Assembly: GCA_946481315.1 (NCBI GenBank) | Contig: CAMLMH010000005.1 | Location: 62,001-126,000, forward strand | Source: an uncultured Bacteriovorax sp. | Lineage (GTDB): Bacteria > Bdellovibrionota > Bacteriovoracia > Bacteriovoracales > Bacteriovoracaceae | Length of the DNA stretch: 64,000 nt | Direction of reading: 5' to 3' | Part shown: piece by piece, positions 17,110-27,182 of the stretch | How the letters are laid out: every line of letters begins with the position of its first letter | How positions within the stretch are numbered: position 1 is the stretch's first letter | The notes under the pieces: generated by a model | Seen by the model: the letters and a program-made list of their open reading frames with translations, nothing else | What the model was told of the DNA's origin: nothing | Database searches by the model: none | Position numbers and translations under genes: made by a program

Positions 17110-18678
17110 TTACAGATTTGTTTCAATTGCGTTGATGTCTTTTGATAAAGAAGCATCAACTTTCACTTTTTCAGTGATGGCATTAACTGCATGGATAACT
17201 GAAGAGTGATCGCGTCCTCCAAAGAAGGCACCAATCTCTTGTTGTTTGGCATTGACCACTTTACGGGCCAGATACATGGCTATGTGACGGGCTTTGGTAA
17301 TGTCCTGGCTTCTGCCTTTAGATTTTAAATCAGCTAGTGGTAAACGGAAATATTGAGCTGTAGCCTTAGCTACGGCTTCAATCGTTACTTCTTTTTCATC
17401 TTCGCCAGTGTTGAAGTTCAATTGTTCTTTAACAAGATCAACTTCAATTTCAACGTTCATTAGTTCACTGACTGCTTTCAAACGTACCAATGAACCTTCA
17501 AGTTCACGGATGTTTGTTTTAATTCTCGAAGCAATTAACGTTAGAACATCTTCAGTGATGTAAATATCGAGAGCCTCCATTTTTCGTCTTAAAATGGCCA
17601 AACGAGTTTCTAAATCTGGTGGCTGGATATCAACAACCAGTCCCCATTGCAGACGGCTCTTAATACGCTCTGAGATCCCGTCGATTTCTTTAGGTCGTTT
17701 ATCGGATGTAAAGATTAGCTGCTTTCCCTTATTATGCATTTCATTGAATACATGGAAAAACTGATCCTGAGTCGCTTCTTTATTTTTTAGTTCGTGAATG
17801 TCATCAATCATTAAAATGTCGATTCGTTCAGTATATTTGCGCACGAATTCTGTAATTTTATTAGTCTTTAAAAGAGAGATCATCTCTTCCATGAAATCAC
17901 GGGCTGTCGTCAGGCAAATAGTGTATTCAGGGTGGCGATCAGCAATTTCATTGGCCACAGCATGCAGAAGGTGAGTTTTGCCCAGCCCCGAATTGCTGTG
18001 AATATAAAGAGAAGGATATTTTCCCTCTTTGCCTGGTGTAAGAGCTACAGCTTTAGCCGCAGCCTGAGCGATATTGTTATTTGGTCCCACAATAAAGTTA
18101 TCAAAAGTCTTAGCGCGATCAACGCGAATTCCGGTTTTATTAGGGTTCATGTGCTGAATGTATTCGGCTTCAGCTTTAGATTTTAAATCATCGCGAGTAG
18201 GGGTTAAATCCAGCTTAAAAGTCATGTTACTCACAGACTTCGGCTTAATTTCCTCTTTATTCATGTTAAAAATGGTTTGCGGCTTATGACCATCATTTTG
18301 ATCTTTTGCGTTAATTTGGATATTGTATTCAGTTCCTAAAACATTATAAAGAGCTCGCGACATCTCTTCTTTATACAGTTCCGCCGACTTCTTTATAAAA
18401 GATGTCTTCACTTCAAAGATTGCCGTTTGTCCTTCTATTGATAAAAGTTCTAAACCTTGTTCGAAATAAGTTTTGAAATTAAGTTCAGGAACGATTGTCT
18501 TTAGGTGGTTTAAAACTTCGGAATTAATAGATTTTAGTTCTTCTTTGTAAGCCTGATCAGCGCTGGCACCTAGAGTGGAGGACGCTATCATTGGAGGAAG
18601 TTGTGAAGTTAAGTTGTCAGAACTTGATGTTTTTGCATTTAATTTGAGAAAGTGCTCAAACGGGAAGTCTTGGGCCAT
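17110..18678 (-). CDS. dnaA: Chromosomal replication initiator DnaA, with N-terminal extension
   Basis: AAA+ initiator that binds the boxes just downstream of its own gene. 522 residues. Domain I begins near residue 45 (EELKSINSEVLNHLKTIVPE) and is preceded by about 44 extra Ser/Thr-rich residues. The start is supported by GAGG six bases upstream of the ATG at 18678. Linker domain II spans about 125-185; FDNFIVGPNN opens domain III; Walker A is NSGLGKTH (229-236); Walker B is ILMIDDIHEL (D292, D293). The domain IV signature GGRDHSSVIHAV lies near the C-terminus. Confidence 0.97.
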   Translation of the reverse strand: MAQDFPFEHFLKLNAKTSSSDNLTSQLPPMIASSTLGASADQAYKEELKSINSEVLNHLKTIVPELNFKTYFEQGLELLSIEGQTAIFEVKTSFIKKSAELYKEEMSRALYNVLGTEYNIQINAKDQNDGHKPQTIFNMNKEEIKPKSVSNMTFKLDLTPTRDDLKSKAEAEYIQHMNPNKTGIRVDRAKTFDNFIVGPNNNIAQAAAKAVALTPGKEGKYPSLYIHSNSGLGKTHLLHAVANEIADRHPEYTICLTTARDFMEEMISLLKTNKITEFVRKYTERIDILMIDDIHELKNKEATQDQFFHVFNEMHNKGKQLIFTSDKRPKEIDGISERIKSRLQWGLVVDIQPPDLETRLAILRRKMEALDIYITEDVLTLIASRIKTNIRELEGSLVRLKAVSELMNVEIEVDLVKEQLNFNTGEDEKEVTIEAVAKATAQYFRLPLADLKSKGRSQDITKARHIAMYLARKVVNAKQQEIGAFFGGRDHSSVIHAVNAITEKVKVDASLSKDINAIETNL

Positions 18679-21133: not shown

Positions 21134-22639
21134 ATGAATTTTTACACTGATGACCAACCGATAATTGCATGTAGTACTGGCACTCAAGCCAATACTGCCA
21201 TTGCAGTTATCCGGTTATCAGGATTCAAAAAATTAGCAGATCTCCAGCCCTACTTTTCAAAAGATCTCTCCAAACTTTCAAAACGAACTGCAGCTCTTTC
21301 CAATATTCAGTTTGAAAATATTGTTTTTGACAACGGCTTACTTATTTATTTTCCTGAAGGCGAAAGTTATACAGGAGAGCATGTTCTCGAACTGAACGTT
21401 CATGGAAACCAACTCAATATTCAGCGTATTCTTAATTTATTCATCGAAAAAGCTAAGTTCAGGGCAGCTCACCCCGGTGAGTTTACTTATCGCGCACTGA
21501 AAAATAAAAAGCTATCGCTTTCCCAGGTGGAAGGACTAGACATGCTTTTAAATGCTAACTCCAGCCTGATGCTTTCTCAGGGACTGGACGTTCTGCAGGG
21601 AGATCTGCATGCACAATATCTGGCCCTTCATGACTCTTTTTTAAAATTAAAAGCCGCGGTTGAAATCAGTATCGATTTTTCGGAAGACGTTGGGGCAGAA
21701 GAAACTCAGAAATTAATGCAGGATTCTTTCGCTCGCTTTAAAAAAATCATAAGCAGCCTTAAAACCAGGACTGAAGGTAACATTTCTTCACTTTTAGCTC
21801 CGGAAATTGCATTGACCGGACAAACCAACGCCGGAAAAAGTTCACTTTTTAATTTGTTGCTTAAAGATGACCGTTCTATCGTCTCCAATATTGCCGGAAC
21901 AACCCGCGATTACGTATCCGAAATTTTGCACATTGATGGGACCAACTACAAACTAGTAGATACCGCCGGAATCCGTGAATCTAACGACGTCATTGAAAAT
22001 ATCGGAATTGATCGGGCCCTGACCATTTTAAAGCGATCATTCTTTAAAATTCTGGTCATCAATCCATTCGAAACAAATCCAGATTATCTGCAAAAGTTTA
22101 AAAATATCGACTTTGATCTTCTGCTTTTCTCACATAAAGATCAGCCCAATTTTCATCAAAAAGTAGGGGAGATTGATCACAGTTTCATTGGGAAAAAGCA
22201 TATTTTTAATGCCGATTTTGTGAGTGGTTCTATAGGACCAGATGATGGTAAAAGTGGTTCTATAGGACCAGCAAATGCAAAAAGTGGTTCTATAGGACCA
22301 GCAAATGGTAAAAGTGGTTCTATAGGACCAACAAATGCAAAAAGTGGTTCTATAGGACCAACTGCCCCTATAGAACCACTGATCCGCGAATTGATCGCCC
22401 AAAAGTATGCGGAAGCCACAGCCAACAACCCGATATTACTAGAGAGACACCGTCAGGTAATAAATAAAATTTACATTAAAACCGTTGACTTCGAACGAAT
22501 TTTCAATGACTTAGATGACGCGGCGATTATATCTTCTGAGGTCAATATCCTGGGCGTTTATCTTTCAGAGCTGATTGGAATCCTTACTCCAGATGATGTA
22601 CTTAATTCAATCTTTTCAAATTTTTGTATTGGGAAGTAG
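21134..22639 (+). CDS. mnmE: tRNA modification GTPase MnmE, with repeat-expanded G5 loop
   Basis: With MnmG it installs the cmnm5 group on wobble uridine of certain tRNAs. 501 residues, about 40-50 longer than usual. The N-terminal tetrahydrofolate domain is normal. The G domain shows G1 GQTNAGKSS (229-237), G2 GTTRDY (255-260), G3 DTAG (276-279) and a G4-like SHKD (333-336). At the G5 position (SGSIG for the usual SAxxG) the motif is repeated five times as SGSIGP plus a 4-residue linker, residues 364-409, then IEPLIREL resumes. The C-terminus FCIGK with the catalytic Cys is intact, and the frame is unbroken, so the protein is probably functional. Confidence 0.95.
   Translation: MNFYTDDQPIIACSTGTQANTAIAVIRLSGFKKLADLQPYFSKDLSKLSKRTAALSNIQFENIVFDNGLLIYFPEGESYTGEHVLELNVHGNQLNIQRILNLFIEKAKFRAAHPGEFTYRALKNKKLSLSQVEGLDMLLNANSSLMLSQGLDVLQGDLHAQYLALHDSFLKLKAAVEISIDFSEDVGAEETQKLMQDSFARFKKIISSLKTRTEGNISSLLAPEIALTGQTNAGKSSLFNLLLKDDRSIVSNIAGTTRDYVSEILHIDGTNYKLVDTAGIRESNDVIENIGIDRALTILKRSFFKILVINPFETNPDYLQKFKNIDFDLLLFSHKDQPNFHQKVGEIDHSFIGKKHIFNADFVSGSIGPDDGKSGSIGPANAKSGSIGPANGKSGSIGPTNAKSGSIGPTAPIEPLIRELIAQKYAEATANNPILLERHRQVINKIYIKTVDFERIFNDLDDAAIISSEVNILGVYLSELIGILTPDDVLNSIFSNFCIGK
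22223..22380 (+). repeat. In-frame 30-bp tandem repeats ending in an inverted copy, inside mnmE
   Basis: Four full 30-base units start at 22223, 22253, 22283 and 22313, and a fifth core starts at 22343. The core AGTGGTTCTATAGGACCA is constant and only the 12-base linker varies. The core is itself a near palindrome (TGGTTC-TATA-GGACCA, one G-T pair). After the fifth core comes CCTATAGAACCACT (22367-22380), an exact 14-base inverted copy of AGTGGTTCTATAGG at 22343-22356. Each unit encodes SGSIGP plus four residues. Confidence 0.95.
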
Positions 22640-22691: not shown

Positions 22692-22707
22692 AGTTCTACG
22701 TGGAACA
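22692..22707 (+). promoter_or_regulatory. parS: parS-like ParB-binding site 1
   Basis: AGTTCTACGTGGAACA, 14 of 16 matches to the palindromic consensus TGTTCCACGTGGAACA. It lies in the mnmE-mnmG gap just before the mnmG start, and shares 15 of 16 bases with the site at 25149. Confidence 0.8.
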
Positions 22708-24568: not shown

Positions 24569-25203
24569 ACTTAAATGAATTCAGTCAGCGCTACCTAGAT
24601 CTTCTAACCGGTGAGTTTGCCGGGATCAATTTAACCAGGATTGAGTCTCCCGAGGAATTCTTCCAAAAACAAATTCGGGATTCGATCCTTCCCCAGGAAG
24701 AAAGCGCAGTCTTCAGGAAATGCCTGGAAAAAACCAAAGTCATGGTGGACATCGGTTTCGGTGGCGGCTTTCCAGTTTTACCCTTGGCCTTTATGAATCC
24801 TGATAAGAAATTTTATGGAATGGATGCCCGTGCAAAGAAAGCCCAAACAGTTGCCAAGATAGCTGATCGGCTAGAATTAAAGAACGTCAAGCTTATGCAT
24901 CAGCGTTATGAAGAAGTTATTTTTAACCGTGATGCGGTCGTGACCTTTAAAGCGGTGGGTAAAGTATGTGACTTGCTGCCTTTATTTAAAACTAATAACA
25001 ATCTTTACGTCTTTTTCTATAAAGGACCCAATTTTTACGACCTGGAAGAAATTGAGCCCATGCTAGATGATTGGGAGGTCATTGAAGAGACATCTTATGA
25101 TGTTCCCGGAACAGAGGGCAGATTGCTGCTGGGGTTCAAGAATAAAAATGTTCTACGTGGAACAAAAACTCCAAAAAATATTCAATTTTCACAGTTACAA
25201 TAA
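24565..25203 (+). CDS. rsmG: 16S rRNA (guanine-527-N7)-methyltransferase RsmG
   Basis: SAM-dependent methyltransferase acting on G527 of 16S rRNA. 212 residues. Motif I is MVDIGFGGGFPVLPLA, followed by FYGMDARAKKAQTV (acidic ribose contact) and the VTFKAVGKV region. The last 20 or so residues after LLLGFKNKN look like a dispensable tail; the DNA for this tail contains the second parS-like site. It is translationally coupled to mnmG by ATGA overlap. Confidence 0.94.
   Translation: MNLNEFSQRYLDLLTGEFAGINLTRIESPEEFFQKQIRDSILPQEESAVFRKCLEKTKVMVDIGFGGGFPVLPLAFMNPDKKFYGMDARAKKAQTVAKIADRLELKNVKLMHQRYEEVIFNRDAVVTFKAVGKVCDLLPLFKTNNNLYVFFYKGPNFYDLEEIEPMLDDWEVIEETSYDVPGTEGRLLLGFKNKNVLRGTKTPKNIQFSQLQ
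25149..25164 (+). promoter_or_regulatory. parS: parS-like ParB-binding site 2, inside the rsmG 3' end
   Basis: TGTTCTACGTGGAACA, 15 of 16 matches to the palindromic consensus. It lies inside the rsmG reading frame, 93 bases before parA, where it could also serve ParB in autoregulating parAB. Confidence 0.85.
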
Positions 25204-25256: not shown

Positions 25257-26153
25257 ATGGCTAAAATCATTGCAATGATGAACCAAAAAGGTGGCGTTGG
25301 TAAAACGACTTCATCAGTAAATTTGGCAGCGTGTCTGGCAGTAGCTGAGAAAAAAACTCTACTAATTGACCTGGATCCACAGGGCAACGGCTCACTTTCC
25401 ATTGGTCTTTCTAAAGAAACATTCGCCGGAAAAAATATTTATCATGCGCTGATTGGCCAGATTGATATTAAAGACGCGATTTACGAAAGTGAGCTTCCTT
25501 ATTTTCATATTTGTCCGTCTGATAACAATCTTTCAGGTGCGGAAATTGAACTCGTGAGTTTATTTGCTCGCGAATCAAAATTAAAACAAGCATTCAAATC
25601 CGTTGAAAAAGATTACGACTATATCATTATCGACTGTCCTCCATCACTTGGACTATTAACCGTGAACGCTCTCAATGCAGCTCACTCCTATATTGTTCCA
25701 ATGCAAACAGAATATTTAGCAATGGAAGGATTAGCTCAGCTCTTAAATACGGTTCGCTTAATTAGAACATCGTTAAATCCTAATCTGGAATTAGACGGAA
25801 TTTTATTAACGATGTTTGATTCGCGCTCTGGTCTGCATAAGCAAGTTGTGAATGAAATCAAAACTCACTTTGGTGATGTAGTTTTCAAAACCATTATTCC
25901 TCGTAATGTAAAACTAGCTGAATGTCCTTCATTCGGAAAACCAGTCATTCTTTACGATATCGAATCCAAGGGTAGTGAAGCTTATCTGGCCCTCGCCAAA
26001 GAATTAATTTTAAAAGAAAGATTTAAAGCTGCACCGGCTCCAGTGGCTGCACCAGTTGCTCAGGAAGAGAAGGAACCAGAAGACGCACTAATGAGTGCCA
26101 TTCCCGATTTAAGTAATATTTCATTTGATGAACCACCGGTATTTGAGCAGTAA
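25257..26153 (+). CDS. parA: Chromosome partitioning ATPase ParA
   Basis: Deviant Walker-A ATPase that moves ParB-parS complexes. 298 residues. KGGVGKTTSSVNLA (residues 11-24) carries the signature lysine pair; LLIDLDPQGNGS and YDYIIIDCPPSLGLLT follow. There is no N-terminal DNA-binding extension, as in chromosomal (Soj-type) members. A tail of about 40 residues rich in Ala, Pro and acidic residues follows the domain. AGGGGA precedes the ATG. It lies 14 bases before parB. Confidence 0.96.
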   Translation: MAKIIAMMNQKGGVGKTTSSVNLAACLAVAEKKTLLIDLDPQGNGSLSIGLSKETFAGKNIYHALIGQIDIKDAIYESELPYFHICPSDNNLSGAEIELVSLFARESKLKQAFKSVEKDYDYIIIDCPPSLGLLTVNALNAAHSYIVPMQTEYLAMEGLAQLLNTVRLIRTSLNPNLELDGILLTMFDSRSGLHKQVVNEIKTHFGDVVFKTIIPRNVKLAECPSFGKPVILYDIESKGSEAYLALAKELILKERFKAAPAPVAAPVAQEEKEPEDALMSAIPDLSNISFDEPPVFEQ

Positions 26154-26167
26154 GCGAGGATTAAGTT

Positions 26168-27106
26168 ATGGCTAAAAAAATTGCATTAGGAAAAGGTATT
26201 GCATCTCTTCTTCACGACGCTGCTCCGGCAACAGTTGTGAACCAAACATATAATGCTCACTTTAATTCAGAAGCAGCACCAGCAGTTCCAGCTGAGAGAG
26301 AAGTTGAAGTCAGAATAGAAAATACTCCCTTATTGGTGGATGTTGGTTCCATTAAAACCAATCCAAATCAACCACGAAAAATTTTCAAAGAAAAAGATCT
26401 CGAAGAACTTTCAGAATCAATCAAAGAAAATGGAATTATTCAGCCGCTGATTGTTGCTGAACTCGATGGCGGACAATTTGAACTTGTCGCAGGTGAGAGA
26501 CGTTTAAGAGCAGCTAAAAAAGCGGGCTTAGAACAAGTTCCAGTCGTGGTAAAAAGAGCAACTGACCGTGAGAAAATGATCATGTCGATCATTGAAAACG
26601 TTCAGCGTTCCGACCTCAACTGTGTGGAAGAAGCCCTGGCCTATTATCAACTGATGAATGAATACAAACTTACCCAGGAAGAAGTGGCGAAAAAACTTGG
26701 AAAGGAACGCTCAACTATTGCGAACTTTTTGCGTGTTTTAAATCTGCCTCGTCCGGTAATTGATCTTCTTCAAAAAGAAATGCTCTCTTTCGGCCACGCT
26801 AAAATCCTTGCCAGCGTAAAAGAGCGTGAAGACGCCGTAAGACTGGCCAACGAAGCTGTTGCCAAGACATGGTCGGTTCGTGAATTAGAACAGGCGATAA
26901 AGGCTAAAAAACCGCTTAAAGAGAAGGCACCAAGAACCAATCCTTTTTTTGATGAAAAGCTTGATCAGTTTAGAAAGTCTCTGGAGCAAAAAACCGGATT
27001 CCACTACAACATAACTTCCGGAAAAAATGGTTCAGGCCAGGTCATCCTAAAGTTCTCCAATGAGGCAGAATTTAACGATATTTATGAATTCCTGCTTTCG
27101 AAGTAA
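26168..27106 (+). CDS. parB: Chromosome partitioning protein ParB
   Basis: parS-binding CTPase clamp. 312 residues. The N-terminus AKKIALGKGIASLL contains the short Lys-rich peptide that stimulates ParA. The CTP-binding GERRLRA box lies at 109-115, ENVQRSDLN at 143-151, and the parS-reading helix-turn-helix at about 168-190 (LTQEEVAKKLGKERSTIANFL). A C-terminal dimerisation domain follows. It is co-transcribed with parA and ends at a strong hairpin terminator. Confidence 0.96.
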   Translation: MAKKIALGKGIASLLHDAAPATVVNQTYNAHFNSEAAPAVPAEREVEVRIENTPLLVDVGSIKTNPNQPRKIFKEKDLEELSESIKENGIIQPLIVAELDGGQFELVAGERRLRAAKKAGLEQVPVVVKRATDREKMIMSIIENVQRSDLNCVEEALAYYQLMNEYKLTQEEVAKKLGKERSTIANFLRVLNLPRPVIDLLQKEMLSFGHAKILASVKEREDAVRLANEAVAKTWSVRELEQAIKAKKPLKEKAPRTNPFFDEKLDQFRKSLEQKTGFHYNITSGKNGSGQVILKFSNEAEFNDIYEFLLSK

Positions 27107-27135: not shown

Positions 27136-27159
27136 AAAGTGGTCCCATAGGACCACTTT
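27136..27159 (+). terminator. Rho-independent terminator after parB
   Basis: A perfect 10-bp stem AAAGTGGTCC / GGACCACTTT with loop CATA, followed by TTG. The GTGGTCC-CATA-GGACCAC core closely resembles the palindrome repeated inside mnmE. A further GGACCAC (27168-27174) just before the bactofilin start can also pair with the left arm. Confidence 0.8.
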
Positions 27160-27182
27160 TTGTTTCAGGACCACAAAAAGTT

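Follow-up and report, generated by a model that had tools for sequence, protein, structure and literature searches.

Palindromes repeated in frame in mnmE of a Bacteriovorax relative look like part of a second set of chromosome-handling sites near the origin

Why does mnmE, a housekeeping gene for a GTPase, carry a row of identical small palindromes within its reading frame in an uncultured Bacteriovorax sp.? The sequence analysed was a window of 64 kb (the whole stretch of DNA, 64,000 nucleotides) which contains the chromosomal origin neighbourhood, with most genes named by sequence and position. Its minus strand carries recF and dnaN; these are followed on the plus strand by dnaA, rnpA, yidC, mnmE, mnmG, rsmG, parA, parB, a bactofilin-like gene and the atp genes. 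A tRNA scan of the window found no tRNA. An earlier note on this DNA had reported five in-frame copies of a palindrome in mnmE followed by an exact 14-base inverted copy, and both were confirmed. Five identical copies of AGTGGTTCTATAGGACCA start at 22223, 22253, 22283, 22313 and 22343, on an exact 30-base period and with an identical repeat unit of 18 bases, and the inverted copy at 22367-22380 is exact and forms part of a sixth 16-bp site, TGCCCCTATAGAACCA. The features used below are as follows.

17110..18678, plus strand: dnaA, an ORF named from its sequence, which marks the origin-proximal region
21134..22639, plus strand: mnmE, an ORF with Pfam matches and NCBIfam TIGR00450 over its cut-off; the array lies in codons 364-415
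22225..22240, unstranded: site 1, TGGTTCTATAGGACCA, in mnmE
22255..22270, unstranded: site 2, TGGTTCTATAGGACCA, in mnmE
22285..22300, unstranded: site 3, TGGTTCTATAGGACCA, in mnmE
22315..22330, unstranded: site 4, TGGTTCTATAGGACCA, in mnmE
22345..22360, unstranded: site 5, TGGTTCTATAGGACCA, in mnmE
22363..22378, unstranded: site 6, TGCCCCTATAGAACCA, with a variant half-site, in mnmE; contains most of the 14-base inverted copy
22692..22707, unstranded: parS-type site AGTTCTACGTGGAACA in the mnmE/mnmG gap, one mismatch to the core consensus
25149..25164, unstranded: parS-type site TGTTCTACGTGGAACA at the end of rsmG, one mismatch to the core consensus
25257..26153, plus strand: parA, canonical chromosomal, an ORF named by position and sequence
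26168..27106, plus strand: parB1, the canonical chromosomal ParB, with PF17762 and PF02195, NCBIfam TIGR00180 and the PDB relatives Spo0J and ParB
27140..27155, unstranded: site 7, TGGTCCCATAGGACCA, in the gap between parB and the bactofilin-like gene, just 3' of parB

These seven sites stand out sharply from the rest of the window. A search with a broader set of half-sites (TGGTTCTA, TGGTCCTA, TGGTCCCA, TGGTTCCA, TGCCCCTA and TGCCCCCA) at zero mismatches returned exactly these, six in mnmE and one in the gap after parB, and elsewhere in the 64 kb found nothing with fewer than three mismatches. A chance test of the repeat itself gave 15 strand matches in the window at up to three mismatches, against a mean of 0.85 and a maximum of 4 in 100 shuffles. 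A second half-site, TGCCCCTA or TGCCCCCA, recurs at site 6 and in many relatives, mostly paired with a TGGT half-site, and may be the weaker half or one that is read differently. A T run follows the longer inverted repeat in which site 7 lies (27138-27165), and the site may for that reason double as a terminator after parB. The positions of both parS-type sites are kept in most relatives compared. A plasmid search with the mnmE-region DNA returned two records, each with one 75-bp match, in mnmG.

What the array does to the protein can be read from MnmE itself, which in the window is 501 amino acids long with the Pfam domains TrmE_N, MMR_HSR1 and MnmE_helical. It had been proposed that the SGSIG peptide is the G5 motif, copied five times. 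This now seems unlikely, because S-A-[SD]-F is kept just upstream of the array in many relatives. Its counterpart in the window is N359-A360-D361-F362, and in the AlphaFold model of the window MnmE a predicted strand, 353-361, ends at this stretch, which together suggest that the array probably comes after G5 rather than duplicating it. Residues 371-409 have pLDDT <50 in that model (overall pLDDT 72.9, pTM 0.45), and the array loop is predicted to be disordered. Among the best 120 of 6827 scored MnmE relatives, whose source names are mostly Bacteriovorax (two MAG records also name Rhizobacter and Alphaproteobacteria), every one of the 120 has one or more [GA][PS][IM][GE]P motifs in its C-terminal part, with varying motif number and varied spacers in the aligned loop. 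Because the motif is present in 120 of 120, an assembly artefact is unlikely. Tandem multiplication in a lengthened loop, also suggested earlier, was borne out: across 91 mnmE genes 0-11 sites follow G3, and the segment from DTAG to the end gains 9.6 residues per site (Pearson 0.91). Short-loop relatives exist as well, in a sister lineage whose mnmE loop has no array (L014-L025, L027-L029, L032, L033 and L042); the DTAG-to-end segment is 181 residues in L015 and L019 versus 226 in the window. The earlier idea that copy number could tune GTPase activity gained no support: the array is predicted to be disordered, and sister lineages have a short loop and keep single sites in other places.

The sites extend well beyond mnmE, and they stay near the origin. 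Origin loci were picked by mnmE or mnmG (9 of the 91 picked by mnmG were chosen for absence of the exact 16-mer) and duplicates were removed by shared 60-mers, which left 114 non-redundant loci of 127, 1.91 Mb. These hold 670 sites at up to one mismatch, whereas five first-order Markov controls gave 0 each; 112 of the 114 have at least one site, with a maximum of 13 in a locus. At the same tolerance parS is found in 111 of the 114. When near-perfect 16-bp palindromes were sought without bias, the top families were parS and the mnmE-array family, each in 11 of 11 origin loci. In whole genomes, 69 of 71 sites (12 genomes; 11 matches for the reversed control) and 58 of 60 sites (8 genomes; 0 matches for the reversed control) lie within about 11 kb of mnmG, with one genome, G006, belonging to both sets. 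Two of the 8 genomes, each with one near-complete contig, have 9 of 9 and 3 of 3 sites near mnmG. The exceptions are in G010 C3, G011 C11, G043 C14 (at 447304) and G051 C4.

Within the origin loci it is the DNA, not the peptide, that the codons show to be conserved. In 398 motif peptides from 91 genes, Ile is encoded by ATA in 97% of cases versus 24% in the rest of mnmE, Ser by TCT in 97% versus 33%, and Glu by GAA in 98% versus 62%. The motif peptide swaps P for S and G for E freely, changes which at the DNA level are mere Y/R changes in GGTYCTATAGRACC, and which would be odd for a peptide. Of the mnmE sites, 454 of 458 share one frame. In the sister lineage single sites are common around codon 59 of yidC, codon 46 of mnmE and codon 145 of mnmG, and the mnmG site is read in a different frame. 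Other hosts are parB (30 sites), atpA (4), rsmG (2) and the opposite strand of yidC (3), and 112 sites lie beyond the analysed gene set, mostly between genes. The gap between parB and the bactofilin-like gene holds a site in 33 of the 77 loci with both genes within 1 kb. Spacings below 60 bp are multiples of three in 329 of 349 cases, as expected with most arrays being coding, and noncoding clusters 3' of parB have 3-5 sites at spacings of 23-34 bp that are not necessarily multiples of three (L136, L166, L168 and L169). Two unusual loci were also seen. In L128 the block of dnaA, rnpA and yidC has the opposite orientation to mnmE-parB, with sites in or near both blocks, and in L127 (2175-8589) about 6.4 kb separates the end of the mnmE match from mnmG, with sites adjoining mnmG.

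The family is restricted to one lineage. Exact copies of the 16-mer TGGTCCTATAGRACCA were found in 112 of the order's 129 genomes and in none of the 239 others of the phylum, and its reversed-pattern control occurs in none of the 129 and none of all 368. Eight of the 17 order genomes without it (G018, G029, G055, G088, G111, G112, G115 and G118) also have no mnmG match, so the origin contig may be absent from those assemblies; three more genomes have the 16-mer and no mnmG match. Among the nine with an mnmG match, seven carry variant sites close to the origin, and the mnmG loci of the remaining two, G116 and G119 (the latter locus just 10.3 kb), showed no site near the origin. A degenerate pattern gave 0, 1, 2 and 1 matches in G115, G116, G118 and G119, away from the mnmG loci examined.

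Viral contigs contained the exact 16-mer in 41 stretches, which by a rough estimate is about the chance level for a collection of that size, and a tblastn search of these stretches found no relative of ParA2, ParB2, ParA1 or ParB1 and only one weak match to MnmE. One viral stretch, L262, has four sites at up to one mismatch. A phage-like record (L272, 1961-2012) has two exact palindromes 36 bp apart in a collagen-like gene with a GPIGP repeat, apparently a coincidence of GPIGP codons. No paper of the open literature searched contains the motif, and those listed on Bacteriovorax parS or ParB and on MnmE loop repeats or insertions describe nothing of the kind.

If the DNA is what is kept, some protein may read it. 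A ParB_N search of 12 genomes found two proteins besides ParB1, here called ParB2 and ParB3, each in 11 of the 12. ParB2 (277 amino acids in L111) follows its own ParA-like gene on a contig other than the origin's, and in the two loci read it is two genes from an ORF that we named dehydrogenase-like. At E <=1e-50 it is present in 119 of the 129 genomes of the order and in none of the 239 others, the window's own genome being outside this set, and 15 of the 239 match it at just about 1e-20 to 4e-24. Across the order, 103 genomes have both sites and ParB2, 9 have sites alone (G005, G026, G033, G038, G077, G103, G109, G117 and G123), 16 have ParB2 alone and 1 has neither. Of the 16 with ParB2 and no exact 16-mer, seven also have no mnmG match and a further seven carry variant sites close to the origin; the last two, G116 and G119, have none there, yet their ParB2 helix is unchanged.

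ParB2 has the features of a ParB-family protein. It scores over the cut-off for ParB_N and HTH_ParB, carries GERR in 20 of 20 aligned sequences, and has Spo0J, ParB and Noc as its sequence relatives in the PDB. The best structural matches of its predicted model are Noc and ParB chains (pLDDT 66.5 and pTM 0.44, a modest confidence). The recognition helix reads GISKSEVHR in 19 of the 20, nine of which come from genomes without the exact 16-mer, and one has GVSK. The operon of a ParB-family system usually has a site close by. At 11 parAB2 loci no site was found at up to two mismatches, two of the loci having a single match each at three mismatches, and no palindrome was common to more than three loci, so the DNA site of ParB2 is expected elsewhere; if ParAB2 is the cognate pair of the origin sites, these lie away from their operon. 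Co-occurrence with ParB2 in one order would fit many other proteins too. ParB2 is the leading candidate reader, a strong lead and not proof.

Other explanations have to be weighed against this one. Selection on GPIEP-type peptide repeats in MnmE would account for the motif in all of the best 120 of 6827 relatives and for the single frame of nearly all mnmE sites, but it is barely credible beside the codon bias, the P/S and G/E swaps that fit Y/R changes, the recurrence of the same DNA in another frame in mnmG and between genes, and the predicted disorder of the array. The palindrome might instead work as RNA, forming a hairpin that serves the processing, stability or termination of the yidC-mnmE-mnmG-parAB transcript. 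The core can indeed fold into the hairpin proposed in the earlier note (-10.5 kcal/mol for TGGTTCTATAGGACCA with three flanking bases added), the five mnmE copies of the window are the form that folds better as sense RNA, and a T run directly follows site 7. The commonest form in the direction of mnmG, however, is TGGTCCTATAGAACCA (189/670), which folds worse, at -7.0, than its mirror TGGTTCTATAGGACCA (63/670), while TGCCCCTATAGAACCA, which recurs 31 times among the 670, barely folds (-0.8) and three sites in yidC genes are on the opposite strand, making a role as RNA very unlikely. The earlier note had also likened the array to Rickettsia palindromic elements, as an element that entered or arose within mnmE and then expanded. 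Its in-frame position in a protein gene and its tandem growth both stand. A mobile nature does not find support, since Rickettsia elements scatter and 69/71 and 58/60 sites of this family keep within about 11 kb of mnmG, with almost no copies off the origin in 20 genome searches. The unit is also short (16 bp), and its sequence is constant across the order while its positions shift, so that a selfish element which entered mnmE and multiplied appears highly improbable.

A closer alternative keeps the family of origin sites and changes the reader, which could be ParB1 with a second specificity, ParB3 (PF02195), or an order-specific factor, perhaps a regulator of replication or an anchor at the pole. 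Neither where the sites lie nor how well they are conserved identifies their binder, parB1 sits among the sites, and nine order genomes have sites but no ParB2 match. Against this, the ParB1 helix looks canonical in the window and in 34 other aligned sequences of the order (GKERST or GKERSS, and FGHAK or LGHAK), the phylum outside the order has no such sites (0/239), and ParB3 is patchy, with matches at E <=1e-20 in 84 of the order's 129 genomes and in 1 of the 239 others. A different reader is possible, though on the whole we consider it unlikely. ParB3, a third PF02195 protein of about 300 amino acids (L115, L119) and nearly absent outside the order, was rejected as the reader for its patchy presence. 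No conserved site was found near the parAB2 or parB3 loci.

The reading that we prefer, with a probability of about 0.62, is that the mnmE array belongs to an order-wide, origin-proximal set of second centromere or parS-like sites, with ParB2 as the most likely reader. Spacer-free 16-bp palindromes with half-sites TGGTYCYA and TGCCCCYA would serve as a second centromere beside canonical parS. ParB2, encoded with its own ParA at another place on the chromosome, would nucleate on them and slide along origin DNA, and ParA2, or a membrane or pole partner, would then position the origin. In Bacteriovorax relatives the sites accumulate in the MnmE loop after G5, each at a cost of about 9-10 residues (GPIEP, GSIGP etc.), probably because a surface loop tolerates extra residues, which we take to be harmless. 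The sites are present at the origin of this one order, their DNA is conserved, MnmE is lengthened by them, and they are co-distributed with ParB2. From their being origin-bound and clustered, their turnover in position with sequence kept, and their co-occurrence with a ParAB pair, we infer a role in partition or origin positioning, in which a protein, most likely ParB2, would bind them.

Judged from sequence, it is slightly better than an even bet that two partition-type systems share one origin throughout the order, canonical ParABS and a ParAB2 found in this order alone. The centromere array of ParAB2 would, in part of the order, have arisen within a housekeeping gene, and the demand for DNA sites would dictate the length and sequence of a conserved GTPase. 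If true, one bacterial origin would have a second centromere-like set, its candidate reader encoded at a distance from the canonical operon, and a chromosome's need for DNA sites would, strikingly, have rewritten a conserved protein. It would also caution that protein repeats encoded close to an origin may be disguised DNA sites.

Three known systems invite comparison. Like Rickettsia palindromic elements, these palindromes lie in frame in protein genes. Rickettsia elements scatter across the genome, whereas the array family is undispersed, its sequence conserved at one chromosomal region, and in the sets of 12 and 8 genomes it was not spread over many genes.

The likeness to chromosomal parS is closer. 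Both are short spacer-free palindromes clustered near the origin, some of them intragenic, in the neighbourhood of parA, parB and a bactofilin gene. The array family, however, does not match the parS consensus (of the TGTTYCACGTGRAACA type), from which it differs at three of eight half-site positions (TGGTYCYA versus TGTTYCAC; 5/8 agree); it reaches 13 sites per origin locus, forms tandem arrays in coding DNA, and has parS itself beside it. For Bdellovibrio bacteriovorus, passages of one paper describe a ParABS system with two parS near the origin (PMC10547168), and passages of another report neighbours without strong ParB homology for the other two ParA genes (PMC7186360). The latter fits the view that ParAB2 arose within this order.

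Noc and its binding sites (NBS) offer a parallel in which a ParB relative has a site differing from parS at few positions, and Noc gives the top structural matches of ParB2. ParB2 is no Noc by the NCBIfam Noc model TIGR04285, scoring 101.3 bits, far below the cut-off of 315. NBS spread widely over the chromosome, whereas the array family is confined to the origin region and ParB2 is paired with its own ParA. As described in passages of Jalal et al. (PMC7383237), the sites of Noc and ParB are distinguished by two half-site positions, and specificity is set by four residues. A comparable specificity shift could explain ParB2. The system would also lend itself to testing how ParB-family proteins acquire new DNA specificities.
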